Below are positions 38,932-57,918 of a stretch of 64,000 nt of DNA, one piece after another. Origin of the DNA: Mesorhizobium sp. B2-3-12 (GTDB taxonomy: Bacteria > Pseudomonadota > Alphaproteobacteria > Rhizobiales > Rhizobiaceae); the NCBI RefSeq assembly GCF_006442205.1, contig NZ_VFVR01000008.1, positions 62,001 to 126,000 of the forward strand, written 5' to 3'. The translations under genes and the position numbers were made by a program. The first letter of the stretch is position 1. The number at the start of each line of letters is the position of its first letter. The notes beneath the pieces are model-generated. The model had not been told where the DNA came from. It saw only the letters and a program-made list of their open reading frames with translations, and made no database searches.

Positions 38932-39046
38932 CTTTTAAAGCACAGTCCATTCTGCGTTTGCCGCCTTTGCCGCCGCCGATCGTGTCCTCATATTGGCCTG
39001 GACAGCGGCAAGGGCCGCACAAAGCACTAAGGGAAGGAGCAGGATC

Positions 39047-39979: not shown

Positions 39980-39983
39980 GGCG

Positions 39984-41033: not shown

Positions 41034-42092
41034 ATGACCGAATCCGATCTCGTCCCCGTCTTCGACGGCCATAACGACACGCTGCTGAGGCTCTATCAGT
41101 CCAAGAACACCGACGTCGAAAAGCTGTTCATCGAAGGGAAATCGGGCGGCCATATTGACCTGCCGCGCGCCAAGGCCGGCGGATTTGCCGGCGGCATGTT
41201 CGCCATTTTCCCGCCGCCGGTGGAGAAAGCGCGGCGCAGCGCCGTGCCTTTGGCGCCGAGCGACAGCGAGCCGCTGCCGCCCGAGGTTCCGCGCGCCGAT
41301 GCGCTCAACTCGACGATCGCGATGGCCTCCATCCTGTTTCGGCTGGAGCGGGCCGGGGCGCTGGCCGTTTGCCGCAGTGCCGGCGATGTCCGCGCCGCCA
41401 TGGCGCGAGGCACGATCGCCGCGGTGTTCCACATCGAGGGCGTCGAGGCGATCGACCCCGAGCTCACCCTGCTCGACGTACTGCATGCCGCGGGCCTGCG
41501 TTCGCTCGGCATCGTCTGGAGCCGGCCGAATGCATTCGGCCACGGCGTGCCGTTCCGTTTTCCGTCCTCGCCAGACACCGGGCCTGGCCTGACCGATGCC
41601 GGCAAGGCGCTGGTCAGGGCGTGCAATGAACTGAAGATCATGATCGACCTCTCGCATCTCAACGAGAAGGGCTTTCGCGATGTTGCTGAAATCAGCGATG
41701 CGCCGCTGGTCGCCACCCATTCCAACGTGCATGCGATTTGCGGCCATTCGCGCAATCTCACCGATTGGCAGCTCGGCGCGATCCGCGAGTCCGGCGGCAT
41801 GGTCGGGCTGAACTTCGCCACGGGCTTCCTGCGCGAGGATGGCCGCATGAATGCCGACACCAGCCTCGACATCATGGTGCGCCATATCGATTCCCTGCTG
41901 CAGGCGCTGGGCGAGGATGGGGTCGGTCTCGGCTCGGATTTCGACGGCGCGATGATCCCGGCCGTCATCGGCGACGTCGCCGGCCTGCCGAAACTCGTCG
42001 ATGCGCTGGCGGCGCGTGGCTTCGGCCGTGCGCTGATCGAGAAGATCGCCTACCGCAACTGGCTGAACATGCTGGAGCGCACGATCGGCTGA
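41034..42092 (+). CDS. Membrane dipeptidase (peptidase family M19)
   Basis: A 352-residue zinc dipeptidase. FDGHNDTLL gives the first His/Asp ligands, HIEGVEAID the Glu, ATHSNVHAICGHSRNL two His, and GLGSDFDGA the Asp. No signal peptide is present, so it is cytosolic. M19 enzymes cut dipeptides or related amides. In Pseudomonas a homologue belongs to the glycine-betaine regulon, which fits its place beside the amine catabolic genes here. Convergent with the minus-strand FAD/GcvT operon. Confidence 0.9.
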   Translation: MTESDLVPVFDGHNDTLLRLYQSKNTDVEKLFIEGKSGGHIDLPRAKAGGFAGGMFAIFPPPVEKARRSAVPLAPSDSEPLPPEVPRADALNSTIAMASILFRLERAGALAVCRSAGDVRAAMARGTIAAVFHIEGVEAIDPELTLLDVLHAAGLRSLGIVWSRPNAFGHGVPFRFPSSPDTGPGLTDAGKALVRACNELKIMIDLSHLNEKGFRDVAEISDAPLVATHSNVHAICGHSRNLTDWQLGAIRESGGMVGLNFATGFLREDGRMNADTSLDIMVRHIDSLLQALGEDGVGLGSDFDGAMIPAVIGDVAGLPKLVDALAARGFGRALIEKIAYRNWLNMLERTIG

Positions 42093-42097
42093 GCCAG

Positions 42098-42346
42098 CTA
42101 GGTGTCGAACCCCATGCGCGCCAGCCAGTCCTTGCCAACGCCACGGTCGCGGATGATCGGCAGCGGGTTTTCCGAATCGAGCCGGGCGCAGATGCGGTAG
42201 ACTTCGAGCGTCTCGGCGCTCATCTCTTCGCGCTTGTAGAAGAACATGGCGGCGGCATAACGGGTGCGGCCCGACCATTTTTCGCCGAGCGGCGTGTTGA
42301 CCAGTTCCCACTGTTCGGCGGCTTCGCCTTCCACATCCTCGGCCAT
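42098..42346 (-). CDS. Small hypothetical protein in the FAD/GcvT operon
   Basis: An 82-residue soluble protein (WELVNTPLGEKWSGRTRYAAA, EVYRICARLDSENPLPIIRD). It starts 2 bases after the stop of the GcvT-like gene, so it is the last gene of a four-gene operon. No cofactor motif or membrane segment is seen. Because it always follows tightly here, it may be a subunit or accessory of the demethylating enzymes; unproven. Confidence 0.65.
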   Translation of the reverse strand: MAEDVEGEAAEQWELVNTPLGEKWSGRTRYAAAMFFYKREEMSAETLEVYRICARLDSENPLPIIRDRGVGKDWLARMGFDT

Positions 42347-42348
42347 GC

Positions 42349-43608
42349 TCAGAAATCCGCCGGTGGATTTGATGTGCGGCGGTCGAGCTTGATGAAGGGC
42401 CGCGCCACCACCTTGGCCCGTTTCATCAGCTTCTGATACTGCAATTCACGCATGGCGTAGATCTCGACCCAGAGGTCTTCCACGAGGGTATCACCATAAG
42501 GCCGCGCCAGCGAGGCGATGGCGATGTTGCGCTTGGCCATCGGCGACCACATTGCGGCGCTGACCAGCCCGACCTCCTGGCTCTTCCTGTAGTAGACGAT
42601 GGCGTGTTCGGCCGGAATGTTGCCCTCGATCTCCAGCCCGACCAGGACATGGAGCAGCCTGCGTTTTGTCCTCGCTTCGAGGATGGCGCGGCGGCCGTTG
42701 AAATGGCCTTTTTCCAGATCGATCATGAAGCCGAGGCCGATCTCGTCGGGCATGCGCAGGCGGTCGGCGCGGATGGCGTGTTCGGCGGTGGTGAAATCGG
42801 CATTGGCGACAATCAGCCCGGCTTCGAGGCGTGCGCGGTTGAGCGCGGTGTAGCCGATGGCGCGGATGCCGCGCGGTTCACCTGATGTCATCAGCCGGTC
42901 CCACAGGCTCAACGCCTTGTCGGCCGCAACGAAGAGTTCGTAGCCGAGATCGCCGGTGAAGCCGGTGCGCGAGATGGTGACGGTGGCGCCATCATGTTCG
43001 AACTCGGCGAGATCAAAGACCTTTAGCTTGTCGACACCGGCGAAGCCGGCATCGCGCAGCACCGCGAACGAGGTCGGGCCCTGCAAGGCGAGCCCGGCGA
43101 CGGCTTCTGTTTCCTCCTCGACGGTCACCTCGAAACCGAGGGCGCTGTCCAACAGCCAAGGCAGATGCCGCTCCTGCGAACAGAGCCGGAAGCGTGTCGG
43201 CGACAAGCGAAAAAGCGTGCCGTCGTCCAGGACAAAACCTTCGTCGTCGCACCACGCGGTGTAGTGGACGCGGCCGGGCCTGAGCCTGGTGACATCGCGT
43301 AAAGTGACGCGGTCGAGGAAGGCTTCGGCATCCGGCCCCTCGATCCGGTATTTGGTCATCGGCGAGATGTCGAACAGCGCCGCCTGGCTGCGAATGGCGA
43401 AATATTCGAGCTCCTCGTCCCACAGCGAATGCGGCGCGCGGTAGCCGGCCCAATTGTACCAGTCCTGGGTCTTGGCCAACGCGTCGAGGCGCGGCTGGAA
43501 CGGCGTGCCGAGGCGCAGTGTGCGAAAGTGGGATTGCGCCGCTATGCGGGCGGCGGCGATAAGGTCTGGCGCAGCCGCGAGGGGCTTTTTCTTGGTTGCC
43601 TGGGCCAT
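42349..43608 (-). CDS. GcvT-family aminomethyltransferase/demethylase
   Basis: A 419-residue protein of the GcvT fold. FALFDISPM-like (AALFDISPMTKYRIEGPDAEAFLDRV) and VTISRTGFTGDLGYELFV are typical folate-binding segments; GYTALNRARLEAGL and the C-terminal barrel follow. Such enzymes move one-carbon units from methylated amines to tetrahydrofolate. It is a stand-alone protein, not fused to a dehydrogenase domain. It lies 3 bases after an FAD oxidoreductase in the same operon, suggesting that they demethylate one substrate in turn. Substrate unknown. Confidence 0.85.
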   Translation of the reverse strand: MAQATKKKPLAAAPDLIAAARIAAQSHFRTLRLGTPFQPRLDALAKTQDWYNWAGYRAPHSLWDEELEYFAIRSQAALFDISPMTKYRIEGPDAEAFLDRVTLRDVTRLRPGRVHYTAWCDDEGFVLDDGTLFRLSPTRFRLCSQERHLPWLLDSALGFEVTVEEETEAVAGLALQGPTSFAVLRDAGFAGVDKLKVFDLAEFEHDGATVTISRTGFTGDLGYELFVAADKALSLWDRLMTSGEPRGIRAIGYTALNRARLEAGLIVANADFTTAEHAIRADRLRMPDEIGLGFMIDLEKGHFNGRRAILEARTKRRLLHVLVGLEIEGNIPAEHAIVYYRKSQEVGLVSAAMWSPMAKRNIAIASLARPYGDTLVEDLWVEIYAMRELQYQKLMKRAKVVARPFIKLDRRTSNPPADF

Positions 43609-43611
43609 GGT

Positions 43612-45177
43612 CTACCCCTTCATCGCGATGATGCGCCGCGCCGCGTTCAAACCGGGCGCACCCGAAACACCACCGCCGGGATGCGAACCGGCGCCGGCGA
43701 GGAACAGCCCGTCGAGCGGCGTGTCGTAACCCGACCAGCCGGAGACGGGGCGCGAGATCAGCATCTGATCGGCCTGCAATTCGCCGTGATGCCAGTGGCC
43801 GCCGGGCATGCGGTAACGCTTTTCGATATCGGCTGGCGTCAGAAGCTCGGCATGGCGCACGGTTTTGCCGATGCCGGGCGCGTAGGCTTCCAACTGGGCC
43901 ATGATCGCCGCGAGGAATTTAGGCTTGCCGGCATCCCAGCCCTCTTTCAACTGATAGGGCGCGTATTGCACCACGGCCGACAACACGCAGGCGCCGCCGG
44001 GCGCCAGCGAGGCGTCGGCAAGGCTGGGCAGCGTGACCTCCATCACCGGCTCGGGCGAGAATTCGCCATATTTCGACGGATTGAAGGCGCGCTCGACATG
44101 ATCGGGCGAGGGGGCAATGACAAGTCGGCCCTTGTGGTCGGCAGCATCGGCGCCAGTGAACCGCGGCGGCCGGTCGAGCGCCAGATGAAGCTTGGCGACA
44201 TCGCCCTTCATACGGATGTTCTTGACCTTGCGGGTGAAACCCGTGTCAATCTCACGCGGTCCGACGAGGTCGAGGAAGGTGGTTGCCGGGTTGATGGCGG
44301 AGACGATGGTGCTGGCGCGCAGCTCTTCTCCAGTGTCGAGCGCCACACCGACCGCGCGGCCTTTCTCGACAAGGATACTTGCGACCGGCACCGACGTGCG
44401 GATGGTGACGCCGGCCTTGTCGGCGGCGGCGCGGATCGCGGCGACCACCGCGCCCATGCCGCCTTGCGGCAGCCATTGCGCTCCGGCCGCGCCTCCGGTC
44501 TCGCCGGCCAGACGATAATAGAGGCCGAGCAGCGAGGTCGGCGAGCGCGGGCCGAGATGGCTGCCAAGCGTGGCGTCAAAGGCGAGCAGGCCCTTCAGCC
44601 TGTCATCGGCGAGCTGTTCGTCGAGCAGGTCGGCGACGTTCATCAACAGCACGCGCAGGAAGTCGCGCATGCCTTCCTTGCCGAGTTTCTTCAGCGCCAA
44701 TGCGGTCTGGCCGAGCGAAGCGGTCTCCAGCAGCGACATGCCGCCGAGATCGGGTGGGCGCCGCGCCAGGAACGGTTTCAATATGCCGGCATAGCGCAAC
44801 AGCTGTGCGCGCAATTCCTTCCAGGCCGATTGCTCGGCGGAACTGGCACCGGTCAGCACCTCGCCATAGGCACCATGCAGGACAAGCGCCGGGCCGTCCT
44901 TCGACAGCGCAACGGACGGGATGAAGTCGGCACGGGCGATCCGCAGCCCGTGCTTTTCCAGCTCCAGCGTCTTCATCACATCGGGATGCAGCCGGTTCAG
45001 CACATGCGCGATCGAGGAAACGCGAAAGCCGGGCGCGAATTCCTGGGTGCGCGCCGCGCCGCCGAGTTCAGCTGCGGCTTCCAGCACCAGCACCTTGCGG
45101 CCGGCCTTCGCCAGCGTGGCGGCGGCGACAAGCCCGTTGTGGCCGCCGCCGATAACGATGCCATCAAATAACGTCAT
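43612..45177 (-). CDS. FAD-dependent oxidoreductase, CrtI/phytoene-desaturase-like
   Basis: A 521-residue flavoprotein. The N-terminal dinucleotide motif is GIVIGGGHNGLVAAATLAKAG, with Glu of VLVLEAAAELGG for FAD ribose. The C-terminal FAD segment is LDGLFLAGAGSHPGGGVSGAPG. The family includes carotenoid desaturases and amine or retinol oxidoreductases; no carotenoid genes are nearby. It overlaps the preceding paralogue by 14 bases and precedes the GcvT gene by 3 bases. Probably it dehydrogenates the pathway's amine substrate. Confidence 0.85.
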   Translation of the reverse strand: MTLFDGIVIGGGHNGLVAAATLAKAGRKVLVLEAAAELGGAARTQEFAPGFRVSSIAHVLNRLHPDVMKTLELEKHGLRIARADFIPSVALSKDGPALVLHGAYGEVLTGASSAEQSAWKELRAQLLRYAGILKPFLARRPPDLGGMSLLETASLGQTALALKKLGKEGMRDFLRVLLMNVADLLDEQLADDRLKGLLAFDATLGSHLGPRSPTSLLGLYYRLAGETGGAAGAQWLPQGGMGAVVAAIRAAADKAGVTIRTSVPVASILVEKGRAVGVALDTGEELRASTIVSAINPATTFLDLVGPREIDTGFTRKVKNIRMKGDVAKLHLALDRPPRFTGADAADHKGRLVIAPSPDHVERAFNPSKYGEFSPEPVMEVTLPSLADASLAPGGACVLSAVVQYAPYQLKEGWDAGKPKFLAAIMAQLEAYAPGIGKTVRHAELLTPADIEKRYRMPGGHWHHGELQADQMLISRPVSGWSGYDTPLDGLFLAGAGSHPGGGVSGAPGLNAARRIIAMKG

Positions 45178-46783
45178 GGGCCAGGCTCATATGCGAGGTG
45201 GATTTGGCGAGGTCGCGCAGGATTTCGGCAGCGGCGTTGCGGCCGGGCGCGCCCATGACGCCGCCGCCGGGATGGGTCGAGGAGCCGCACATATAGAGCC
45301 CGCCAACCGGCGACCGATACTGCGCGTAGCCCGGCACCGGGCGATTGAACAGAAGCTGGTCGAAGGTCAGTTCGCCCTGGAAAATATTGCCTTCGGTGAG
45401 GCCGACCTCGGCTTCGATCTCGCGCGGCGTGCGTACTTCCATGTGGATGATGCGGTCGCGGAAACCGGGCGAATACTCAGCGATCTGCGCGATCACGCTC
45501 TCGGCAAAACCGTCGCGATCGGCATCGGTCCAGTCGCGGCCGTTCACCTTTGGCGGGGCATACTGCACGAAGCAGCTCATGAAGTGTTTGCCCGGCGGCG
45601 CCATGGTCGGATCGAGCGTCGTCGGAATGACCATGTCGAGGAAGGGATCGGCCGACCAGCGGCCAGCCTTCCAGTCGTCATAGGCGCGCTCCATGCGCTC
45701 CATCGAATCGGTGAAATGCATGTCGCCGCGATAGACGGGCGAATCCATCGGCAGAGCGGGGAATTCCGGCAGCGAATCGAGCGCGATGTTGACCTTGCCG
45801 GAGGAACCGCGAATCTTGAAGTTCTTCACCCGCCGCAGGAAGATGTCAGGAAGTTCCTTCTCCTCGACGAGTTTCAGGAAGGTGCGCTTCACGTCGGCAT
45901 TGGAGACGACCAGCTTGCCGTAGATTTCCTCGCCGCCGGCCAGAACCACGCCCCTGGCCTTGCCTCGGCTCACCAGCACATGGTCGACCTCGGCGCCGGT
46001 GCGGATCGTGCCGCCCGATGCCTTGAGGGAGGCCGTCAGAGCCTTGGTCACCGCGCCCATGCCGCCGCGTGCATAGCCCCAGGCACCAACGGAACCATCG
46101 ACCTCGCCCATGTAATGGTGAAGCAGCACATAGGCGGTGCCGGGCGACATCGGCCCGAGCGCCGTGCCGATGATGCCAGACAAGGCGAAGTTCGCCTTGA
46201 TGACGTCGGTCTCGAAATATTCGTCGAGGAATTCCGAGATCGACATGGTCCAGAAGCGCAGGGTCAGCGCCATTTCCTCCGATGACAGTCCGGCGAATTT
46301 CTTGCCGAGATAGAGGAGTTCGCCGAGGTCGCGCGGGCGCAGGCTGGTCGGGTCAGGCGCGGTGCGCATCAACAGCGGCTGGATGAAGCGGCATTGCCGC
46401 GTCACGTCGCGGGCGTAGCGGTCATAGGCCTCGGCGTCCCTTTTGGAGAAGCGCGCGAATTCGCGCCGGTGCGCGTCGTGGTCGCGGTAGTTGGCGAGGT
46501 AGTCACCGTCGCGCGTGAACACCGCGCCGCCCTCATAGGAGATGACCTGCAGGCCGAAGCGCGGCAGTTCGAGGTCGCGCATGATCTCGGGGCGGAACAG
46601 CGAGCAGACATAGGAGCAGTTGGAGTAGAGGAAGCCCGGCGTCAGCTCGCGGCTGGTGGCCGCGCCGCCGACCCAGTCATTCTTCTCGACCACCAGCACG
46701 TCGAGACCGGCGCGCTGCAGGTAGCAGGCGTTGACCAGGCCGTTATGTCCGCCGCCGATGATGATCGCATCCCAAGCTTTCAT
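45164..46783 (-). CDS. FAD-dependent oxidoreductase, paralogue of the next gene
   Basis: A 539-residue flavoprotein started at MKAWDAIIIGGGHNG (46783). The FAD motifs are IIIGGGHNGLVNACYL, VVEKNDWVGGAATS, and near the end GGLYMCGSSTHPGGGVMGAPG. It shares the fold and order of the downstream 521-residue enzyme, so the two may act as a pair or be isoenzymes. It is first in the minus-strand operon and shares a 278-base regulatory region with the methyltransferase, where an operator-like palindrome lies. Confidence 0.85.
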   Translation of the reverse strand: MKAWDAIIIGGGHNGLVNACYLQRAGLDVLVVEKNDWVGGAATSRELTPGFLYSNCSYVCSLFRPEIMRDLELPRFGLQVISYEGGAVFTRDGDYLANYRDHDAHRREFARFSKRDAEAYDRYARDVTRQCRFIQPLLMRTAPDPTSLRPRDLGELLYLGKKFAGLSSEEMALTLRFWTMSISEFLDEYFETDVIKANFALSGIIGTALGPMSPGTAYVLLHHYMGEVDGSVGAWGYARGGMGAVTKALTASLKASGGTIRTGAEVDHVLVSRGKARGVVLAGGEEIYGKLVVSNADVKRTFLKLVEEKELPDIFLRRVKNFKIRGSSGKVNIALDSLPEFPALPMDSPVYRGDMHFTDSMERMERAYDDWKAGRWSADPFLDMVIPTTLDPTMAPPGKHFMSCFVQYAPPKVNGRDWTDADRDGFAESVIAQIAEYSPGFRDRIIHMEVRTPREIEAEVGLTEGNIFQGELTFDQLLFNRPVPGYAQYRSPVGGLYMCGSSTHPGGGVMGAPGRNAAAEILRDLAKSTSHMSLAHDVI

Positions 46784-46961
46784 TTTGGCCCCGGTCCTCC
46801 CTCTTTCGCCCAATTCCCAAGGGAAAGCGCTGCGCGCTTTTCCCGGGAAAACCGCTCACGGTTTTCCTGGATTCGCTTAGGCGATCCGCTGTTCATTTTT
46901 GCGTGATCTGTTCCCGAATGCGCGGAATTTGGCACGGCCTCGGCCATTCTGTCCAGCCATT

Positions 46962-46977
46962 CTGAATGAATGTTCAA
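46962..46977. promoter_or_regulatory. BetI/TetR-type operator, site A
   Basis: CTGAATGAATGTTCAA read on the other strand is TTGAACATTCATTCAG, matching 12 of 16 positions of the perfect palindrome at 57938. It lies between the FAD operon and the methyltransferase gene. A weaker 11/16 match at 47025-47040 is 63 bases further on. Confidence 0.5.
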
Positions 46978-47061
46978 CAAACGGTGTTGCGTTTTCGCGC
47001 ATGTACGCTACGCTTTGCCGGCGTTCGAACGAGCATTCCGTCGATTGGGGACCGAGGGCTG

Positions 47062-47862
47062 ATGATCGAAGCGGCAGAGGCCGAACCGGAATATGACGAC
47101 ACCGCCATCCGCTTCCTCGAGGCGCTGTGGGGCGAAGGCTATCTGTCGCCAGGCGGGCCCGAGGAGGTAAACCGGGTGGTCGAGGGCCTTTCGCTGAAGG
47201 GCAGGACGATCCTCGATATCGGTTGCGGCTGCGGCGGCATCACGCTGCATCTGGTCGAGCATCACGGCGCTGCGCATGCCACCGGTTTCGATGTCGAACG
47301 GCCGGTGATCGCGGCGGCCAGACAGCGCGCCGCCGCGCGTGGCCTTGGCGGGCGCGCCAGCTTCGTTCAGGCGCCGCCGGGATTGCTGCCTTTCGCCGAC
47401 AGCTCGTTCGATGTCGTCTTCTCCAAGGATGCGCTGCTGCATGTGGCTGACAAGGACGCCCTGTTCGCCGAGATATTTCGCGTGCTCAAGCCGGGGGGTG
47501 TTTTCGCAGCCTCCAACTGGATGATCTCGCATGACGGCGAGCCGTCGCCCGAGATGAAGGCCTATGTCGCGGCCGAGGGGCTGTCCTTCGCCATGGCTTC
47601 ACCGGCGCGCTATGCCAAGGCGATGCGTGGCGCGGGCTTTGCCGATATCACCGTCAGGGACCGCAATCCCTGGTATCGCGAGGTCGCGCGCGGGGAGCTG
47701 GAAAGGCTGAAAGGGCCGCTCTATCCGGCCGTTACCGCCGTGGTGGGCGCTGCCTATGTCGACAAGAACATCAAGACCTGGGAGGCCATGCAGAAGGTGC
47801 TTGACAGTGGCGAGCACCGTCCCACTCATCTTCGCGGATGGAAGCCGGATGCAAAGGGATAG
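47062..47862 (+). CDS. SAM-dependent methyltransferase
   Basis: A 266-residue class I methyltransferase started at MIEAAEAEP (47062); an upstream ATG at 46966 would overlap the operator. Motif I is [12 protein letters not shown], followed by [46 protein letters not shown] and [13 protein letters not shown]. The pattern resembles phosphoethanolamine or sarcosine methyltransferases. It is followed by the TetR gene after 6 bases. Why a methyltransferase sits among demethylating enzymes is unclear; the acceptor is unknown. Confidence 0.85.
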
Positions 47863-47868
47863 CCGGCG

Positions 47869-48582
47869 ATGCTGGAGGCCATCACACGCATGAAGACGGC
47901 AGACGCCAGGGACGCCCTGCTCGAACCGGCACGCAAAGTCGACGCCGAGAAGCGCGGGCGCAAGGCCTCCAAAGAGGTCAGGCAGCTTCAGCTCATCGAG
48001 GCGACGATCGATTCGCTTGCCAAGCGCGGCTATTCCGAGACGACGATGGCCGATGTCGCCGACGGCGCCGGCCTGTCGCGCGGCATCGTCAATTTCCACT
48101 TCGAGAGCAAGGAAAAGCTGCTCGTCGCCACCTTGCAGTATATGTATGATGAATACTCAGCGCACTGGCGCAATGCGCTGCAGAAAGCGGGGGACGACCC
48201 CGCCCGCCAGTTGCAGGCGCTGGTCGCGGCAGATTTTGATCGTTTGATCTGCAACAAGCGCAAGCTCGCCGCCTGGTGCGCCTTCTGGGGCGAGGCCAAG
48301 TCGCGGCCGACCTACCAGGCACTGAGCAGCGCGCGCGACGTGGTCTACCAGGATATCTTCATCGAGCTCTGCGCCGCGCTGAAGCAGAGCGGCTCCTATG
48401 CCTATGAGCCGCCGGTCATGGCCTTGGCGCTCAGCGCCATGCTGGAAGGCTTGTGGCTGCGGTTGATGATGGGAACCGAGGACACCACCCGCGAGACCGC
48501 CTTGCAGGCGGCCAATGAATTCCTGTCGGCGGCGTTCCCCAAACATTACCCGCGGAAGGCCGCCGGCACGACAGGATCATAA
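47869..48582 (+). CDS. TetR-family regulator, BetI-like
   Basis: A 237-residue regulator with an N-terminal extension of about 35 residues. The helix-turn-helix is TTMADVADGAGLSRGIVNFHFESKEKLL. The C-terminal domain has KLAAWCAFWGEAKSRPTYQ, characteristic of BetI-type ligand domains. BetI represses betaine synthesis genes in response to choline; this relative sits amid amine catabolism genes and is probably a local repressor. It likely binds the TTGAA-N6-TTCAA palindromes at 46962, 55156 and 57938. Start 47869 or 47890. Confidence 0.85.
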   Translation: MLEAITRMKTADARDALLEPARKVDAEKRGRKASKEVRQLQLIEATIDSLAKRGYSETTMADVADGAGLSRGIVNFHFESKEKLLVATLQYMYDEYSAHWRNALQKAGDDPARQLQALVAADFDRLICNKRKLAAWCAFWGEAKSRPTYQALSSARDVVYQDIFIELCAALKQSGSYAYEPPVMALALSAMLEGLWLRLMMGTEDTTRETALQAANEFLSAAFPKHYPRKAAGTTGS

Positions 48583-48612
48583 AAACAGAACACCACAGAG
48601 GATGGAACAGCG

Positions 48613-49695: not shown

Positions 49696-49812
49696 CCCTC
49701 CGTTCGAAGAGCCCATCCGTCTGTCGGCGACGCCGGCGGATGGGCTCGCCAAAGCGCGTGAATTTGCCTAACCTCGCCCCGACATCTTTCGCGATGAGGG
49801 AGTTTTCGCGCC

Positions 49813-50886
49813 ATGAATTCCATGCTTCGCCGCCTTGTCGTCGCCGCAGCCTGCATGATGGGCGCCGGCGCGGTCTATGCCTTCGCGGAAGGCGGCGAGC
49901 TCGTCGTGTTCGACTGGTCCGGCTATGAGGACCCGTTGCTGCATCCCGCCTACACCGCCAAACATGGCGCCGAGCCGACCTTCGCCTTCTTCGGCGACGA
50001 GGACGAGGCGTTCGAGAAGATGCGGGCCGGCTTCAAGGCAGACATCGCGCATCCCTGTTCGCAAAGCGTGTCGAAATGGCGCGACGCTGGCATGCTGCAG
50101 CCGCTCGATACGTCCCGGATCGCCGGCTGGAAGGATCTCAATCCCGGCATCATGGCGATGAAGAACCTCGCCACCACCGAAGACGGCAAGGCTTGGTTCA
50201 TGCCGTTCGACTGGGGCAATACGGCGTTGCTCTATCGCACCGACAATGTGACGGCCGACGAGGCGAAGTCGCTGCGGATCCTGGCCGATCCGAAATTCAA
50301 GGGGCGCGTCACCATCGGTGACAATGTCGACGACGCCTATGCGTTGGCGAGCCTGGTCATCGGGCTCAAGGACTGGACCAAGATGACCGACGCCCAGTTC
50401 AAGGAGGCGTCCGACTTCCTGCGCCAGGTGCACAAGAACGTCCGTCTCTACTGGACCGATTCGAGCGACATCGATCAGGCCTTTTCCGGCAACGAGGTCG
50501 ACCTCGCCTGGGGGTGGGGCCAGACGTTGATCGCGATGAGCGGGCAAGGCGTTCCCGTCGCCATGAACAGGGATACGAAGGAGGGGATGTCGACCTGGGT
50601 CTGCGGCTACGTGCTGATGAAGGACGCGCCGGGAAAGCTCGACCAGGCCTATGATTTCCTGAGCGCGGTCAATGCGCCCGATATCTCGAAATACATGGTC
50701 ACGACTTTCGGCTATGGCCATGGCAACAGTGCCGGCATGGCGACGATCGACCACAAGGTGCTGGCCGAGCGTGGCTTCGACGACATCGACAAATTCCTCG
50801 ACAAGACCCTGTTCCAGCAGCCGGTTGCGCCGGAACTGAAGAAGCGGATGGTCGACGAGTTCGAGAAGATCAAGGCCGGCTATTGA
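49813..50886 (+). CDS. ABC transporter substrate-binding protein, PotD-like (2)
   Basis: A 357-residue paralogue of the preceding gene, with the same layout: signal peptide to about 26, LVVFDWSGYEDP, FAFFGDEDEAFEKM, HPCSQSVSKWRDAG, WFMPFDWGNTALLY and GDNVDDAYALA. Much of the sequence is identical, but the segment before TWVCGYVL (WGWGQTLIAMSGQG against WAWNDATVQSVAAG) differs, which lies where ligand contacts are expected. So the two may bind different amines. The stop overlaps the TTG start of the amine oxidase by 3-4 bases. Confidence 0.87.
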   Translation: MNSMLRRLVVAAACMMGAGAVYAFAEGGELVVFDWSGYEDPLLHPAYTAKHGAEPTFAFFGDEDEAFEKMRAGFKADIAHPCSQSVSKWRDAGMLQPLDTSRIAGWKDLNPGIMAMKNLATTEDGKAWFMPFDWGNTALLYRTDNVTADEAKSLRILADPKFKGRVTIGDNVDDAYALASLVIGLKDWTKMTDAQFKEASDFLRQVHKNVRLYWTDSSDIDQAFSGNEVDLAWGWGQTLIAMSGQGVPVAMNRDTKEGMSTWVCGYVLMKDAPGKLDQAYDFLSAVNAPDISKYMVTTFGYGHGNSAGMATIDHKVLAERGFDDIDKFLDKTLFQQPVAPELKKRMVDEFEKIKAGY

Positions 50887-52193
50887 ACGACAAAACCGAA
50901 AGAACCGACGTCGTCATCGTCGGCGCCGGCTTTACCGGCCTGTCGGCCGCGCTCGAACTGAAACAGGCCGGCATCGATTTTGTGCTGCTCGAAGCGCGCG
51001 ATCGTGTCGGCGGGCGGGTCGAGGCTGTCCGCAACGAGCTGGGCGAATTGATCGACAGCGGCGGTCAGTTCCTGTGCGTGGATATGCCTGAGGTGATGGC
51101 GCTGGCCATGGCGCACGGCAAGACGCTCGTCGAGACCTATGTCGATGGCGAGTTCATCACCCATCCATCGCTGACCCCGGCGAGAGCCGAGCGTACCTAT
51201 CATGCGTCGATGGCGATCCGCGAGCGCATGAACAGCACCGATCCGGACGACCCGGCAATTGCCGGACTGACTGTCGCGGCCTGGTTGGAACAACAGCATG
51301 ACACGGCCGATACCAAGGCGGCTTTCCGGTCGCTCGTAGAAGGGCTGTGGTGCCTGGCGGCGGACAAGGTGCCGCTCTGGTACCTGATCGACAATGATCG
51401 CCGCATCACAAACGAGGTGTTCGAGCTGCAGTATTTCCTGCGCGAGACCATGCAATCGCTGGCCGAGGATTTGGCCGGCGAGCTCGGCGACCGGCTGCGG
51501 CTGAACGAAGCGGCAACGCGGATCGAGCATGGATCGCAGGGCGTTCGTATCGCCACGACGGCGGGGGCCGTCGAAGCACGGGAGGTGCTGATCGCCCTGC
51601 CGCCGGCGACGGCCGCCAAGCTCGAATTCGCGCCCGCCTTACCTGATGCCCTGGCGAATGCGCTGACCGTCTGGGAAAGCGGCGCGGTGATCAAGATGCT
51701 GGTGCGCTACGGCAAGCCATTCTGGCGCGAGCGCGGCCTGAGCGGCATGGTCATGTGGCGCGATCTGCCTGGACTCTTTGTTTGCGATGGCAGCAAGGAC
51801 AGTGACCATGCCGCGGTCATCGTCTTCGTTGGTGGTCCCCTGGCGCAGCGCTGGCACGCGCTCGGCGACGCGGCATTGGAGGCGGAAGTAACGGCAAGGC
51901 TGGTGGACGCGTTCGGCCCCGCGGCAAACGATGTCCTCGACCTCAGCGCCCGCGACTGGACGCATGACCGCTGGAGCGGTGGTGCCTATAGCGACCTCAT
52001 CGTCGATGTGACGGCCAGGGATGCCGAGCGCACCATTCTTGCCGGCGCGCCGCCGCTGCATTTCGCATCGTCGGAATTGTCGCCGTCATTCCCGGGCTAT
52101 GTCGAAGGCGCGATCGTTGCCGGGCGCATCGCGGCGCTGAAGATCATCGTCGATGTTCAGTCGGCCATCGCCACCAACGCTTCCGGATCATAG
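50883..52193 (+). CDS. Flavin-containing amine oxidase
   Basis: A 436-residue flavoprotein starting at TTG 50883, coupled to the end of the binding-protein gene (TTGA overlap). The FAD motif VVIVGAGFTGLSAALELKQ is followed by LLEARDRVGGRVEAV, and the C-terminus has SPSFPGYVEGAIVAGRIAAL. It fits the amino_oxidase family, which oxidises mono- or polyamines to aldehydes with release of ammonia. Its last 37 bases overlap the convergent PotA-like gene. It may start breakdown of the amine brought in by the transporter. Confidence 0.88.
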   Translation: MNDKTERTDVVIVGAGFTGLSAALELKQAGIDFVLLEARDRVGGRVEAVRNELGELIDSGGQFLCVDMPEVMALAMAHGKTLVETYVDGEFITHPSLTPARAERTYHASMAIRERMNSTDPDDPAIAGLTVAAWLEQQHDTADTKAAFRSLVEGLWCLAADKVPLWYLIDNDRRITNEVFELQYFLRETMQSLAEDLAGELGDRLRLNEAATRIEHGSQGVRIATTAGAVEAREVLIALPPATAAKLEFAPALPDALANALTVWESGAVIKMLVRYGKPFWRERGLSGMVMWRDLPGLFVCDGSKDSDHAAVIVFVGGPLAQRWHALGDAALEAEVTARLVDAFGPAANDVLDLSARDWTHDRWSGGAYSDLIVDVTARDAERTILAGAPPLHFASSELSPSFPGYVEGAIVAGRIAALKIIVDVQSAIATNASGS

Positions 52194-53254
52194 GCGAGGC
52201 GGATCGAGGTGCCGACCGGGATGTCGTCGGCGCCGAAATCGTTGGTCTCGGTCACCGACAGCGGCTTTTCCAGGCCGGGGATTTCGACGATCAGATGGGT
52301 GATCTCGCCGAAATAGTGGCGCTCGACCACCTTGCCGGCGACCTCGAATTTGGCTGTCGCATTGTCCCACAGCACGCGCAGGCGCTCCGGCCGGATGCCG
52401 AGCGTCGCGCCGCCGCCATTGCGCACGAAAGCCTTCGGCTTGTCGGTCTTGATGCGGCCGAATCCCAGCGTGTCCACGACCAGCGAGGCGCCGCTCTCCT
52501 CGACGATCTCAGCCTTGACGAAATTCATGCCGCCCAGGAAATCGGCGACCTGACGGTTGACCGGCCGCTGGTAGATTTCCTTGGGCGAGGCGACCTGGGC
52601 GATCTTGCCGCCAAACATCACGGCGATGCGGTCGGACATTGCGAGCGCCTCATACTGGTCATGGGTGACGAGCACGAAGGTGATGCCGACGGCCTGCTGC
52701 AGGCGGCGCAGTTCGACCTGCATCTGCTCGCGCAGTTTCTTGTCGAGCGCCGACAGCGGTTCGTCGAGCAAAAGCACCTTGGGCCGCATCACCAGTGCGC
52801 GGGCCAGCGCCACACGCTGGCGCTGGCCGCCGGAGAGTTCGGTGGCGAGCCGCTTGCCGAGACCGGTGAGCGAGACCTGCGCCAGCGCCTCCTCGACCCG
52901 GCGCTTTTCCTCACCGCCCTGCAGCTTCAGCCGCTTCAGTCCGTAGGCGACATTCTGTTCGACATTGAGGTGCGGGAAGATGGCGTAGCTCTGGAAAACC
53001 ATGTTGGTCGGCCGGCGGTTGGCCGGGATGCCTTCCATGGGCTGGCCGCCGACCGCGATCGAACCGCTGGTCGGGTTGTCGAACCCGGCGATCATGCGCA
53101 AGAGCGTGGTCTTGCCGCAGCCGGAGGGGCCAAGCAGCGAGAAGAACTCGCCTTCCCTGATGGTCAGGGAGGCGTCGTCCAGCGCCTTGAACGCTCCGTA
53201 GCTGCGGGTGACGTTCTTGATCTCGATCATGGATCGTTGCGGCTGCTCAGGCAT
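52157..53254 (-). CDS. Polyamine-type ABC transporter ATPase (PotA-like)
   Basis: A 365-residue ATPase. Walker A GPSGCGKTTLL, signature LSGGQRQRVALAR, Walker B VLLLDEPLSALDKKLR and the His of VTHDQYEAL are intact; a C-terminal TOBE domain follows from about 285. This is the PotA/spermidine-putrescine branch. Its start overlaps the permease gene by 8 bases, and its end overlaps the amine oxidase on the other strand by 37 bases. It powers uptake through the two permeases next to it. Confidence 0.92.
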   Translation of the reverse strand: MPEQPQRSMIEIKNVTRSYGAFKALDDASLTIREGEFFSLLGPSGCGKTTLLRMIAGFDNPTSGSIAVGGQPMEGIPANRRPTNMVFQSYAIFPHLNVEQNVAYGLKRLKLQGGEEKRRVEEALAQVSLTGLGKRLATELSGGQRQRVALARALVMRPKVLLLDEPLSALDKKLREQMQVELRRLQQAVGITFVLVTHDQYEALAMSDRIAVMFGGKIAQVASPKEIYQRPVNRQVADFLGGMNFVKAEIVEESGASLVVDTLGFGRIKTDKPKAFVRNGGGATLGIRPERLRVLWDNATAKFEVAGKVVERHYFGEITHLIVEIPGLEKPLSVTETNDFGADDIPVGTSIRLAYDPEALVAMAD

Positions 53255-54071
53255 AGAGGCCTCCCTCGTTCTGGGTGCGTCTGGCCGCGCGGCGACGCAG
53301 GATTTCGGCGATCGTCATCAACAGGAAAGAAGCGACCAAGAGCAACGTGCCGAGCGCCAGCACGCCGGGCAGTTTCGAGGCAAAACGCAACTGGCCCCAG
53401 ATGTAGATCGGCAGCGTCGCCTCGGTGCCGGTCAGGAAAAAGGCGATGATGAATTCGTCCAGCGAAATGGTGAAGCAGACGAGCAGGCTGGAGATGATGG
53501 CCGGCGCCACCATCGGCAGCGTCACACGCCGGAACGTGCCGAAGGCGCTCTCGCCGAGATCGGCGGAGGCTTCCTCCAGGCTGCGGTCGAAACCCTCGAA
53601 GCCGGAGGTCAGCACCGTCATCGAATAGGGGATGCAGACCAGGACATGGCCGAGCACGACGGTGAACAGCGACAGGCTCAAGCCAAGCTGCAGCATCACC
53701 AGCAGCATGGAGATGGCAACGATCACTTCGGGCAGCACCAGCGGCGCCATGATCAGTCCGTTGATGGCACGGCGGCCGGGATAGCGGTAGCGGGTGATGG
53801 AGCGGGCCGCGAGGATGCCGAGTACGGTGGCGAGCACGGAAGCCGACACGCCGACGATCAGGCTGTTCCAGGCAGCGTCGAGCAGCGCCGGCGTGCGCGG
53901 CAGGTCCTCGTACCATTGCAGGGTGAAGCCGGTGAGCGGGAATTTCGGTGTGGGCGCCGTGTTGATCGAGAAGATCGGCAGGAAGATGACCGGCAGATAG
54001 AGGAAGACGATGTAGAGGAACGCATAGGCGGACAGCCAGCCGCCGGGCAGGAAACGAGACCGCGCTGTCAT
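53247..54071 (-). CDS. Polyamine-type ABC transporter permease (PotC-like)
   Basis: A 274-residue inner-membrane permease with six helices, the first near 13-32. The coupling loop reads EEASADLGESAFGTFRRVTLP. LDEFIIAFFLTGTEATLPIYIW is typical of PotC. The start overlaps the other permease stop by 4 bases (ATGA). Confidence 0.92.
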   Translation of the reverse strand: MTARSRFLPGGWLSAYAFLYIVFLYLPVIFLPIFSINTAPTPKFPLTGFTLQWYEDLPRTPALLDAAWNSLIVGVSASVLATVLGILAARSITRYRYPGRRAINGLIMAPLVLPEVIVAISMLLVMLQLGLSLSLFTVVLGHVLVCIPYSMTVLTSGFEGFDRSLEEASADLGESAFGTFRRVTLPMVAPAIISSLLVCFTISLDEFIIAFFLTGTEATLPIYIWGQLRFASKLPGVLALGTLLLVASFLLMTIAEILRRRAARRTQNEGGLYA

Positions 54072-54985
54072 CGAGCCATCCTTTGCAAGGCGCGGATGAT
54101 CAGCACCGTGGCGCCGGCCATCAGTGAGACGATCAGCATGGTGGTGACGGAAAGTGCCGCACCGAGCGGCCAGTTGGCGGCCTTGCCGAACTGCGCCTGG
54201 ATGGCATTGGCGATCATGACGCCGTCCTTGCCGCCGACGAGCTTCGGCGTGACGTAGTCGCCGACCGTCGGGATCATGACGATCAGCGCGGCTGAAATGA
54301 TGCCTGGCGCCGACAGCGGCAAGGTCACGCGCAGGAACGAGCGCAACGGGCCGTCGCCAAGGTCCGTGGCTGCTTCGACCAGCGTGCGGTCCACCTTCTC
54401 CAGGGATACGAAAATCGGCAGGATGGCGAAGGCCGCCCAGGCATGGGTGAGCGTGATGATGACGGCGCTCGAATTGTAGAGCAGGGCGGTCGACGGTTCG
54501 TCGATGATGCCGAGGCCCATCAGCCCGGAATTCAAGACGCCATTATAGCCCAGGATGACCTTCCACGACATGACGCGCAGGAGATAGCTGGTCCAGAACG
54601 GGATGGTGATGAGGAACAGCCAGAGGCTCTTGTGACGGCCGCCATGGAAGGAAATGAAGTAGGCGATCGGGTAGGCGAGGAGGACCGTAAAGAAACTGAC
54701 CGTCAGCGAGATGTAGAGCGAGCGCCACAGGAGATCGCGGTAGATCGGCTCGGTCAGTGCGACGCGGTAGTTTTCCAGCGTGAAGGTGCGGTCGATGGTC
54801 AGGTAATGCTGCGTCCAGAAGGAGTGGGCGATGACCACCAGGATCGGCAGGACCAGGAGGATGAGCGCGTAGAGGAAGGTTGGGCTGATCAGGGCAAAGC
54901 CCTGTACGGGCTCGGATTGCAGAAGGGCATTTCGTCTGGCCCGCGTCATGCGCAACGGGGGCGCCCCTTCCGCGGCCGCCGTCAT
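54068..54985 (-). CDS. Polyamine-type ABC transporter permease (PotB-like)
   Basis: A 305-residue permease started at MTAAAEGAPP (54985), with CCGGAG upstream; the frame is open to 55057. It has six helices and the coupling loop VEAATDLGDGPLRSFLRVTLP. PTVGDYVTPKLVGG is the family's signature. First gene of the minus-strand transporter operon, divergent from the aminotransferase; operator site B lies between. Confidence 0.9.
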   Translation of the reverse strand: MTAAAEGAPPLRMTRARRNALLQSEPVQGFALISPTFLYALILLVLPILVVIAHSFWTQHYLTIDRTFTLENYRVALTEPIYRDLLWRSLYISLTVSFFTVLLAYPIAYFISFHGGRHKSLWLFLITIPFWTSYLLRVMSWKVILGYNGVLNSGLMGLGIIDEPSTALLYNSSAVIITLTHAWAAFAILPIFVSLEKVDRTLVEAATDLGDGPLRSFLRVTLPLSAPGIISAALIVMIPTVGDYVTPKLVGGKDGVMIANAIQAQFGKAANWPLGAALSVTTMLIVSLMAGATVLIIRALQRMAR

Positions 54986-55155
54986 TGCCCGACTCCGGGG
55001 GGCAGCGCTCCTGGCATGATCTTGGTTGCTGGCCTGGACTCTTGCGCCATGCGGCATCCCATTTTGATGACGCCGACTGTTGTTCCCCTTGCCGGCTTTC
55101 TTTCATCATGCGCGCATCAGCGGATTGAAATCAAGCGCCATTTCTGCGATGTTGA

Positions 55156-55171
55156 TTGAACGGACATTCAA
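55156..55171. promoter_or_regulatory. BetI/TetR-type operator, site B
   Basis: TTGAACGGACATTCAA: the outer five bases on each side are symmetric and it matches 13 of 16 positions of the perfect palindrome at 57938. It lies in the divergent region between the transporter operon and the aminotransferase. Confidence 0.6.
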
Positions 55172-55217
55172 GATTTGATGCGGAAAGCCCCTATTTCTGG
55201 GATTTTCTTCTGATTTC

Positions 55218-56675
55218 ATGTCCGAGAAAAAATCGTCAAGAGATGTGGAGGCGAGCATGGCGGCGATGAGAGACCTGAAGGCGACCGAAACGGCAGCGCC
55301 CGGAGGCGACGATGCCATTGAACTGGGCAAGCGGCATCTCATCCAGCCTTGGCCTTATGCCGGTTCGGTCGGCGCCGAGGCACGCGCGCTGATCGGCGAG
55401 GGCGACGGCATCTACATCACCGACAGCACCGGCAAGCGGCTCATCGATGGCCCGGCCGGCATGTGGTGCGTCAATGTCGGGCATCGCCGCGAGGAACTGG
55501 CCAAGGTGATGTACGATCAGGCGATGGCGCTGTCCTACAACACGCCCTGGTACACGATGAACGCGCCGTCGGCGGAGCTTGCCATGCGCATCGCCGGCCA
55601 TGCGCCGGGCGATCTCAGTCATGTCTTCTACACCACCGGCGGTTCCTCGGCCGTCGAGACGGCGCTGCGTTTCATGCAGTTCTACAACAATGTCCGCGGC
55701 CGGCCCGAAAAGAAGCTGATCCTGAGCCGTGGCGGCGCCTATCACGGCTCGACCTATCTGTCGGCCTCGCTCAATGGCCGCCCGCGCGACCGCGACTGGA
55801 TGGACGGCGCCGACGAACTGGTGGTAAAGCTCGCCTCGCCCGATCCGTTCCGGCGCCCGCAAGGCATGAGCCTTGCCGCCTTCACCGATTTCCTCGTCGA
55901 CCAGTTCCGCGACACGGTCGCGCGTGTCGGCGCCGACAGAATAGGCGCCTTCGTCGGCGAGCCCATACAGGCCTCTGGCGGCGTCGTCATACCGCCGGAC
56001 GGCTATCTCAAGCGTATCCGCGAGGTCTGCCGCGACAACGACATCCTCTATGTCTCCGACGAGGTGGTGACGGGCTTCGGCCGGCTTGGCCACGTCTTTG
56101 CGTCGGGTGATGTTTTCGGCATCGATCCCGACATGATCACCTTCGCCAAGGGCGTCACCTCGGGCTATTTCCCGCTCGGTGGCGTCATCATTTCCGAGCG
56201 GCTGCTGGAAGAATTGCGCCGTTCCAATCATCCCGACGCACTGTTCGGCCACGGCCTGACCTATACGTCGCATCCGATCGGCTGCGCGGTGGCCTTGAAG
56301 AATCTCGACCTGCTGGAAGAAAGCGTGCTTGCCCACACGCAGGCGGTGGCGCCCTATTTCCAGGCGCGGCTGAAGACGCTGGAAGAGCTGCCGCTGGTCG
56401 GCGAGGTGCGCGGCGTGGGGCTGATGGGCTGCGTCGAATGCGTCGCCGATCGCGAAAGCAAGGATCCGCTGCAGCTCGACAAGAATGTCGGCAAACGCAT
56501 CGATGCGCACTGCCACGAGCTCGGTCTTTTGGTGCGGCCGCTGATCAACATGTGCGTGATGTCGCCGCCGCTCATAATCACGCGCGAGCAGATCGACGAC
56601 ATGGTCGGCATTTTGCGCGAGGGTATTTCGCGGACGATGGACGATCTGAGGAAAGAGGGCGTGTGGCGGGGGTGA
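55218..56675 (+). CDS. Class III aminotransferase
   Basis: A 485-residue PLP enzyme. GGSSAVETALRFMQFYN, SRGGAYHGSTYLSAS, VSDEVVTGFGRLG (Asp for PLP nitrogen) and FAKGVTSGYFPLGGV with Lys311 for the Schiff base are all in place. The family of omega-transaminases moves the terminal amine of putrescine, GABA, beta-alanine or similar compounds to pyruvate. It fits a pathway in which the amine is transported and then deaminated. It shares the operator region with the transporter. Substrate inferred. Confidence 0.9.
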   Translation: MSEKKSSRDVEASMAAMRDLKATETAAPGGDDAIELGKRHLIQPWPYAGSVGAEARALIGEGDGIYITDSTGKRLIDGPAGMWCVNVGHRREELAKVMYDQAMALSYNTPWYTMNAPSAELAMRIAGHAPGDLSHVFYTTGGSSAVETALRFMQFYNNVRGRPEKKLILSRGGAYHGSTYLSASLNGRPRDRDWMDGADELVVKLASPDPFRRPQGMSLAAFTDFLVDQFRDTVARVGADRIGAFVGEPIQASGGVVIPPDGYLKRIREVCRDNDILYVSDEVVTGFGRLGHVFASGDVFGIDPDMITFAKGVTSGYFPLGGVIISERLLEELRRSNHPDALFGHGLTYTSHPIGCAVALKNLDLLEESVLAHTQAVAPYFQARLKTLEELPLVGEVRGVGLMGCVECVADRESKDPLQLDKNVGKRIDAHCHELGLLVRPLINMCVMSPPLIITREQIDDMVGILREGISRTMDDLRKEGVWRG

Positions 56676-56679
56676 CATG

Positions 56680-56712
56680 CTTCCTTCTCACCGTTCTACG
56701 GGGAGAAGGAAG
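56680..56712. terminator. Bidirectional hairpin between convergent genes
   Basis: CTTCCTTCTC and GAGAAGGAAG form a 10-bp stem with a 13-base loop, in the 40 bases between the aminotransferase and the Rieske oxygenase. Confidence 0.6.
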
Positions 56713-56715
56713 GGG

Positions 56716-57918
56716 TTACCCTCGCGACCGCAGCGCGTCGTTCAGATTCCACATGTCCTTTTCCTCAGGCGCGGTCTCCAGGCCGAGCACCGGAATCTGC
56801 CGGCGCAAATGGTCGTGGTGGGTGCGCACGCCATATTCGAGGTCGGAGAGGTAAAAGCCCTCGAAGGCCTCGGACAGCATGGATTCGTTCGACCAGACCG
56901 AAAGCTGCACATCTTCCGACATGGTGTCGCGGTCGATGCGGAAGGAGAGGTAGCGGGCGGCGGCCTGCTCGCGGCTTTCGTCCCCGTAGCGGTAGATGGC
57001 GCCGCGCAGCAGGGTCTCGCTCGTCGACAGCGGGAACTCCTGATAGAACTGCACCGATTCCGGCATCACCGACAGAACGGCGTTGGGGAAGATGCCGTAA
57101 TAGACCCAGGCCTTCCTGAGATGGTCCGGCAGATGCGTCGGCTCCGGTGCGATGTTGACGTAGTTCTTGACGCTCCAGCGGCGGCCGGCATGCGGGTTGT
57201 AGCTGGCGAAGGAACGCGAGACGCCGTTGACGAAAGGCTCGTCGAAATAGGTGGCGCCGTAGAGATCCTGCAACGCCGGGTGCGCCATGGCGACGTGATA
57301 GCCTTCATTGTCAACGTCGCGCACCGACTTCCAGTTGACCGGTGTCTTCTGGGTCCAGGTGCCCCAGGAGGGCACCATGTCGGCGGCCTTGTAATGGGCA
57401 AATTCCGGTTCGATCGGCTTCAGCAGTTCGGCGACGGAGGGCTGTGGGCCGCCATCGCGGAAGCGGATGAAGATGAAGCCCATCCAGACTTCGAGATGGA
57501 GCGGCATCAGGCCGAACTCGGTCTTGTCGAGATCGGGGAAGGAGCGCGGGCGGGCTGCGCCGCGCAGCGTGCCGTCGAGATTGTAGACCCAGCCATGGAA
57601 CGGGCAGACCAGCGCGTTCTTGCAATTGCCCTGGCTGTCGGCGACGACGCGGCTGCCGCGGTGGCGGCACATGTTGTTGAAGCCGCGCACGACGCCGTCC
57701 TTGCCACGCACGATCAGCGCGCGCTCGCCAACGACGTCCATGGTGAGGTAGTCGCCGGCGTTCGGTATGTCGCAGACATGCCCGGCGATCTGCCAATGAT
57801 TGCGGAAGACATGCTCCTTCTCCAGTTCGAGAAGGGCGGCGGAATGGTAACTCCAGCCCGGTAGTCCCCGCCGGTCCCAATCGTTCGGGATTGCCACGTC
57901 ACGGAGGTGCGGGTTCAT
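56716..57918 (-). CDS. Rieske-type ring-hydroxylating/N-demethylating oxygenase, alpha subunit
   Basis: A 400-residue oxygenase. The Rieske cluster ligands are Cys84/His86 (MCRHRGSR) and Cys105/His108 (CPFHGW). The mononuclear iron site has DNEGYHVAMAHP with His208 and His213. The sequence resembles the GbcA/stachydrine-demethylase branch that removes methyl groups from betaines. A ferredoxin reductase partner is needed and is not in this window. The gene stands alone behind a perfect TetR palindrome (57938), so it is likely induced with the rest of the cluster. Confidence 0.9.
   Translation of the reverse strand: MNPHLRDVAIPNDWDRRGLPGWSYHSAALLELEKEHVFRNHWQIAGHVCDIPNAGDYLTMDVVGERALIVRGKDGVVRGFNNMCRHRGSRVVADSQGNCKNALVCPFHGWVYNLDGTLRGAARPRSFPDLDKTEFGLMPLHLEVWMGFIFIRFRDGGPQPSVAELLKPIEPEFAHYKAADMVPSWGTWTQKTPVNWKSVRDVDNEGYHVAMAHPALQDLYGATYFDEPFVNGVSRSFASYNPHAGRRWSVKNYVNIAPEPTHLPDHLRKAWVYYGIFPNAVLSVMPESVQFYQEFPLSTSETLLRGAIYRYGDESREQAAARYLSFRIDRDTMSEDVQLSVWSNESMLSEAFEGFYLSDLEYGVRTHHDHLRRQIPVLGLETAPEEKDMWNLNDALRSRG

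Follow-up and report, generated by a model that had tools for sequence, protein, structure and literature searches.

A 64-kb window of the Mesorhizobium sp. B2-3-12 genome (positions 62,001 to 126,000 of contig NZ_VFVR01000008.1; all positions below are those of the window) contains a group of genes for transport, oxidation and one-carbon transfer (Table 1) that we interpret as a putative regulon for the breakdown of a methylated amine. Gene calls and family searches agree on all 14 genes of an initial annotation, which had proposed an amine-catabolism regulon here. Thirteen of them, at 42349-57918, probably make up the unit, leaving out the M19 peptidase. They form five presumed transcription units: FADa-FADb-GcvT, which runs leftward from 46783; MTase-TetR-SBP1-SBP2-MAO; PotB-PotC-PotA, leftward from 55057; the aminotransferase gene, rightward from 55218; and the Rieske oxygenase gene, leftward from 57918.

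Table 1. Genes and predicted operators of the cluster (FAD, flavin adenine dinucleotide; THF, tetrahydrofolate; SAM, S-adenosylmethionine; ABC, ATP-binding cassette)
Feature	Position	Strand	Basis or context
M19 peptidase (dipeptidase)	41034-42092	+	gene call
GcvT-like THF-dependent one-carbon-transfer protein, gene 3 of the FADa-FADb-GcvT run	42349..43608	-	PF01571, PF08669
FADb, CrtI/CrtO-like FAD oxidoreductase	43612..45177	-	PF01593
FADa, CrtI/CrtO-like FAD oxidoreductase	45164..46783	-	family profiles, fold
SAM-dependent methyltransferase (MTase)	46966..47862 as listed	+	family profiles
TetR repressor, BetI-type C-terminal domain, presumed regulator	47869..48582	+	NF001978, PF13977
Periplasmic binding protein 1 (SBP1), PotD-like, altered site	48613..49695	+	family profiles, alignment
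Periplasmic binding protein 2 (SBP2), SBP1 paralogue (65%)	49813..50886	+	family profiles, alignment
Flavin amine oxidase (MAO), accessory	50883..52193	+	PF01593
PotA-like ABC ATPase	52157..53254	-	family profile
PotC-like permease	53247..54071	-	family profile
PotB-like permease	54068..55057	-	family profile
Class III aminotransferase (AT3)	55218..56675	+	NF005447, over cut-off
Rieske oxygenase, separate clade near GbcA/CntA	56716..57918	-	profiles, alignment, tree
Operator O1 (CTGAATGAATGTTCAA, one mismatch)	46962..46977		between FADa and MTase genes
Operator O2 (TTGAACGGACATTCAA)	55156..55171		divergent PotB / aminotransferase promoter region
Operator O3, perfect 26-bp palindrome TTTTATTGAATGATCATTCAATAAAA	57933..57958		upstream of Rieske gene

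A search for palindromes between genes recovered a predicted operator, TTGAA-N6-TTCAA, that is common to three promoter regions of the cluster (46962, 55156 and 57938). With one mismatch permitted in the ten arm bases, the window holds 4 sites, compared with 0.5 expected in first-order random sequence; O1-O3 are three of the 4. In the entire 6.2-Mb genome, the strict pattern TTGAAYRNNYRTTCAA has matches at two places, both within the cluster; its reversed control has none. Across the loci fetched for comparison, the operator lies upstream of the genes that open a unit (AT3, 43/48; PotB, 23/23; MTase, 16/18; Rieske, 24/37; FADa, 51/94) and almost never upstream of inner genes (FADb, 1/96; PotA, 0/50; PotC, 0/50; SBP2, 0/26; MAO, 0/32). 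The counts were 11/62 for the TetR gene and 0/19, 0/19, 2/19 and 1/7 for the neighbouring genes M19, Est, Dioxg and PehA, respectively, against a background of 169 in 5,000 random 320-bp stretches. These counts took in PotA, PotB and PotC rows of at least 60% identity, AT3 and Rieske rows of at least 45%, and no SBP1 or GcvT rows (no match starting in the first 25 residues), and they are not independent because many loci are close relatives.

The operator also tracks the genes across the genus. Sites in 61 genus genomes sum to 140 in the forward pattern versus 6 for the control, and occur in 49/49 Rieske-positive versus 1/12 Rieske-negative genomes, the single exception (G442) having three. 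Among the matches listed, 75 sites in 28 genus genomes were placed by eye: 69 lie near the FADa or Rieske gene, 5 elsewhere and 1 on a short unplaced contig. Units that are no longer linked still keep the operator (loci L122, L123, L128, L164 and L165), and in Mesorhizobium G470, where the FADa, MTase-TetR and Rieske/aminotransferase units are separated from one another, each of the three has kept a site. Orthologues of the TetR protein occur in all 12 Rieske-positive genus genomes that were picked for an odd arrangement and in 0/4 genomes without FADa and Rieske genes (own genome excluded). The site, the TetR gene and the Rieske gene are thus present or absent together in the genus. The TetR protein passes one BetI profile (NF001978, 127.7 bits; cut-off, 118), falls below another (TIGR03384, 125.1; cut-off, 201.3) and has the PF13977 domain. 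The genes probably constitute one regulon, with the operator read by the local BetI-like TetR protein. The regulon itself, already proposed in the initial annotation, is well supported at the sequence level by an operator that is shared between promoter regions, kept at first genes and nearly absent from inner ones; the operators themselves are predicted sites. They would also offer a direct and cheap experimental handle, as a ligand that releases the TetR protein would point to the substrate. A scan for sigma-70 promoters gave 3 matches versus 2.8 expected. The methyltransferase gene probably starts at 47062, the listed start at 46966 falling within an operator. The same intergenic region, between the FADa and MTase genes, contains three overlapping near-perfect palindromes at 46820-46868 (GGGAAAGCGC..., TTTTCCCGGGAAAA and GGAAAACCGC...TTTTCC), which look like a short intergenic repeat element.

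At the centre of the cluster is the FADa-FADb-GcvT trio. FADa is joined by FADb and GcvT in 73 of 80 genome loci, and the remaining 7 run into a contig end. In a dereplicated set of 22 loci that retain 7 kb of flank on each side (16 of 38 clusters were dropped for short flanks), the trio is complete in every locus, accompanied by TetR in 18, PotABC in 16, a binding protein in 15, a Rieske orthologue in 12 and MTase in 6. Much of the gene combination is conserved, and these counts are lower bounds because flanks are 10 kb or less. The two most distant loci (L115 and L117) have the trio without TetR, importer, aminotransferase or Rieske genes. Among 119 genus genomes, 88 have both FADa and Rieske genes, 1 (79% complete) has FADa alone, 9 have Rieske alone and 21 have neither (Fisher P = 2e-15, relatedness uncorrected). 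Few genomes of the wider class have FADa (19/385). Beyond the genus, the core is found in other alphaproteobacteria and in a few metagenome-assembled genomes (MAGs) of gammaproteobacteria, where a class III aminotransferase and a Pot importer usually accompany it and a Rieske oxygenase often does; several relatives stem from marine records, and the sampling of genomes is biased toward close relatives.

Both flavoproteins score below the cut-offs for the carotenoid enzymes that they resemble: FADa scores 307 bits against CrtO (cut-off, 1000) and 134 against the CrtI family (cut-off, 238), and FADb 225.6 and 116.3 bits, respectively, against the same cut-offs. An AlphaFold model of FADa (predicted local distance difference test score, 80) is nearest in a PDB fold search to carotenoid desaturase 4rep, followed by amine and nicotine oxidases, and the glycines of the FAD site are invariant in 89 FADb rows. 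FADa is the slowest-evolving enzyme of the set; it is more conserved than FADb in 33/33 loci, GcvT in 29/29, the Rieske protein in 14/14, the aminotransferase in 13/13 and PotB in 6/8 (pairs above 40% identity only), and relatives in Mesorhizobium records are 97% identical. The GcvT-like protein has a GCV_T domain (PF01571, 198 bits), and its best NCBIfam match is the GcvT part of trimethylamine N-oxide (TMAO) demethylase, at 252 bits for a cut-off of 1100. TMAO demethylase is also its best PDB match, ahead of aminomethyltransferases and then dimethylglycine oxidase. It scores below the cut-offs for glycine-cleavage GcvT (TIGR00528, 150.4 versus 235.85; NF001567, 202 versus 300) and for SoxA of heterotetrameric sarcosine oxidase (137.4 versus 1164). 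Asp128 is kept in 82 of 88 rows and aligns to D97 of the Escherichia coli protein, the catalytic residue of GcvT-type one-carbon transferases.

The Rieske oxygenase has the features of Group V (quaternary-amine) enzymes, a bridging Glu and His-His iron ligands: its Rieske ligands, bridging Glu205 and iron ligands H208 and H213 are kept in 35/35 rows. The bridging residue is Glu, as in YeaW/CntA, compared with Asp in BenA/AndAc. In the PDB it matches best to carnitine monooxygenase and to an entry titled 'Monoxygenase; demethylase' (3vca/4qup), which we take to be the stachydrine demethylase Stc2 of Sinorhizobium. In a 29-row tree, the 12 cluster rows form a clade (support, 100/98; 98/98 for the 13 rows that include the L106 enzyme) apart from GbcA-like, CntA/YeaW and BenA/AndAc rows; in this tree the names of the GbcA references rest on similarity or gene context, YeaW, BenA and AndAc carry those annotations, and several long branches are unsure. 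On this sequence evidence the enzyme represents its own clade, neither GbcA nor CntA. The earlier label 'GbcA-like' holds as distant similarity and fails as orthology, given the separate clade and a GbcA score (NF058607) of 138.8 bits for a cut-off of 670. The cluster has no Rieske reductase, as had been noted initially, and as far as tested this stands: both PF00970 reductase domains recovered from the genome are on another contig. Elsewhere in the genome a GbcA-like gene, which at 515.7 bits also misses the cut-off of 670, adjoins a Fer2/NAD reductase, which is a candidate electron donor for the cluster Rieske enzyme too.

SBP1 and SBP2 miss the PotD cut-off (NF007048, 93.2 and 80.4 bits; cut-off, 582). 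They retain the Trp/Tyr residues of the PotD site, and PotD residues Glu36, Glu171 and Asp257 are replaced by Gly40, Asp177 and Cys267, invariant in 27/27 aligned binding proteins. The carboxylates at these three positions hold spermidine in PotD, according to PMC4096761, and two of the three are lost here. Binding proteins of the dereplicated loci fall into two families (8 and 7 loci) that never occur together. All 8 loci of the first family have the aminotransferase type of the window, and the 7 of the second comprise 5 with a second type, 1 with the first and 1 with neither. Across the set, 18 of the 22 loci have an aminotransferase, 11 of the window type (matches to which include a polyamine transaminase) and 7 resembling glutamate-semialdehyde aminomutase (NF041362, 420 bits, below the cut-off of 525), never both. 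The aminotransferase step therefore seems to be required, and the arrangement resembles a single demethylation core whose entry and exit steps can be exchanged. The amine oxidase, closest in the PDB to cyclohexylamine and monoamine oxidases and then to putrescine oxidase, occurs in 2 of the 22 loci. The nearest solved structures to the methyltransferase are phosphoethanolamine N-methyltransferases (PMTs).

Taken together, we read these genes as a regulon for breaking down an N-methylated amine, most probably a trimethylammonium (quaternary) compound, that would undergo oxidative N-demethylation followed by deamination, and we assign this reading a probability of about 0.6. The N-methylated-amine theme of the initial annotation is supported. 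The Pot-type importer, with its two diverged binding proteins, would bring in the amine, and the Rieske oxygenase, served by a reductase encoded elsewhere, would hydroxylate one N-methyl group with release of formaldehyde. FADa and FADb may then oxidise the remaining N-methyl group or groups while GcvT traps the resulting one-carbon unit by loading it onto tetrahydrofolate. Deamination of the freed amine by the class III aminotransferase (or the amine oxidase) would give an aldehyde that enters central metabolism. Control would fall to the TetR protein, a BetI relative predicted to bind the operators until the substrate or a product releases it.

Neighbours of the core in distant relatives share a trimethylammonium or amine theme. 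Carnitine 3-dehydrogenase is encoded in L071 (over cut-off) and, by similarity, in L038 and L080, which keeps a trimethylammonium C4 compound in play. An MttB-family trimethylamine methyltransferase homologue lies near the core of a distant alphaproteobacterium (L109, 2673-4181), a TauD enzyme is encoded beside it in L118, Old Yellow Enzyme-type oxidoreductases are encoded beside it in L075, L083 and L109, and L106 has a PuuC-like aldehyde dehydrogenase gene and a gamma-glutamylputrescine-synthetase-like gene, both below cut-off. Tentatively, at somewhat less than even odds, the trio could be a new type of N-demethylase. It would be a complex of three proteins, with two CrtI-fold flavoproteins that together oxidise N-methyl amines and pass the carbon to a separate GcvT, acting on a trimethylammonium compound outside the described pathways, with two interchangeable families each of importers and aminotransferases adapting the core to different substrates.

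The same genes could instead be a second set for glycine betaine, or for glycine betaine derived from carnitine, with the Rieske enzyme yielding dimethylglycine and FADa/FADb/GcvT yielding glycine. The BetI-like repressor would suit this explanation, as would genes that adjoin the core in L038 and L071 (carnitine dehydrogenase, BKACE-like and acyl-CoA genes) and in L080 (carnitine dehydrogenase). We nevertheless consider it unlikely, as the B2-3-12 genome already has the GbcA-like enzyme with its adjoining reductase, a carnitine dehydrogenase over cut-off and 16 further strong GcvT domains, many of which belong to long reading frames, and the cluster Rieske enzyme falls in a separate clade. 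Known glycine betaine breakdown requires neither an aminotransferase nor a Pot importer.

Similarly improbable is a polyamine or N-methylputrescine pathway in which Pot uptake, the aminotransferase and the amine oxidase act on a diamine and demethylation is secondary. The Pot-type importer, the putrescine oxidase and polyamine transaminase among the enzyme matches, and the PuuC-like and glutamine-synthetase-like genes adjoining the core in L106 point in this direction, but the replacement of two of the three PotD carboxylates in all 27 binding proteins weakens the idea of a polyamine substrate, which the initial annotation had entertained; the amine oxidase is seen in 2 of the 22 loci, and the Rieske and GcvT proteins are left unexplained. 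The breakdown of an N- or O-methylated cyclic or aromatic compound (an alkaloid or a homarine-like molecule), with the Rieske or FAD enzymes acting on the ring, has slightly poorer odds still: the modelled FADa fold resembles nicotine oxidoreductase and GcvT-type enzymes are described in PMC5547118 as demethylenating berberine, but none of the 13 genes was recognised as encoding a ring-cleavage enzyme and the bridging Glu is that of YeaW/CntA, not the Asp of BenA/AndAc. Berberine-type demethylenation was considered for the cluster and is not preferred.

Several observations weigh against the proposed regulon for an N-methylated amine. We know of no demethylase that consists of a CrtI-fold pair and a GcvT protein, and a PMT-like N-methyltransferase is odd within a demethylation set. 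At the site of the Cys206/Cys209 pair of CntA, the Rieske enzyme has Gly206 and Val209 in 35/35 rows; a Cys-X-X-Cys beside the iron is found in some characterised quaternary-amine Rieske members, according to PMC10952381. A Rieske orthologue is present in at least 12 of the 22 dereplicated loci, some flanks ending before it. The 9 genus genomes that hold the Rieske gene and TetR without a FADa match suggest that the two halves of the cluster are separable and that the trio is dispensable for retaining the rest; three of these genomes (G389, G438 and G500) retain AT3 and PotB. No operator was found in Rhodobacterales loci L058, L062, L071, L073, L081 and L083. The motif may also serve other users in the wider family, as 87 of 199 genomes there carry the strict site, many of the sites not placed.

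Glycine betaine catabolism proceeds through GbcAB and dimethylglycine and sarcosine oxidases with GcvT domains. The cluster resembles it in Rieske N-demethylation followed by flavin- and GcvT-dependent one-carbon transfer, and its BetI-like control recalls choline regulation; it differs in its separate Rieske clade, in flavin partners that are two CrtI-like proteins rather than fusions, and in the added Pot importer and aminotransferase. Carnitine monooxygenase (CntA/YeaW) is the nearest solved Rieske structure by sequence and shares the bridging Glu, but the cluster enzyme lacks the Cys206/Cys209 pair and is in a separate clade. Stc2, presumably likewise a Rieske demethylase of a betaine, has an E-C-Y-H-C motif where the cluster enzyme has E-G-Y-H-V. 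In TMAO demethylase (Tdm), the GcvT part that is the nearest relative of the cluster GcvT is half of a longer protein, whereas the cluster GcvT is separate and accompanied by two FAD proteins. The transporter has the make-up and the binding-site Trp/Tyr residues of E. coli PotABCD, but with two of the three ligand carboxylates replaced. We view the cluster as a variant of betaine-type demethylation, in which the new element would be the three-part CrtI-like/GcvT demethylase.

Among the literature matches listed, no title or abstract opening names this cluster or enzyme combination and we found no paper that assigns it, in line with the initial view of the combination as unfamiliar. A homarine catabolism pathway has been reported for environmental bacteria (as referenced in PMC13390433); if the homarine pathway genes (Nature Microbiology 2026) are these genes, the novelty drops. 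A methylated amine of soil and sea may have an unrecognised breakdown route, given that the core occurs in most sampled Mesorhizobium (88/119 with both marker genes), in scattered, partly marine alphaproteobacteria and in a few gammaproteobacterial MAGs.

The M19 dipeptidase, counted as a member of the regulon in the initial annotation, was set aside: it has no upstream operator (0/19) and a match in 118/119 genus genomes, including those without the rest of the cluster, and is therefore probably a neighbour. In favour of membership, it also adjoins the TetR unit in scattered genomes (G389, G500 and G470). Beside it in Mesorhizobium loci are conserved genes for a PehA-like ester hydrolase (531.8 bits; cut-off, 900), Dioxg (a label given by eye, as the gene has no family match) and an esterase that resembles MhqD but scores below cut-off, which occupy 37261-40634 in the window. 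Further out (35893-37221) is a gene for a long, apparently secreted protein with, by eye, three similar-looking repeats (VYNGTGD... / VGGFLG) and Ala/Pro/Thr-rich linkers.

Seven of the nine FADa-less genus genomes were read (all except G439 and G478), and in four of them the cluster is decaying. FADa and GcvT are shortened in G495 (L162); TetR, MAO and M19 remain in G401 (L161) and G451 (L163), where the vicinity of TetR showed no importer, trio or aminotransferase; and G464 (L127) shows similar decay, its Rieske gene being shortened. One contig (L069) with a Firmicute label, titled as an Exiguobacterium profundum MAG, carries an alphaproteobacterial-type cluster with a stop in FADa, and is probably a mislabelled record. 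At the end of one Rhodobacterales version of the cluster (L081, 24647-25498) is a gene for a dimethylsulfoniopropionate-lyase-family protein (PF16867), a family found in 5 loci.

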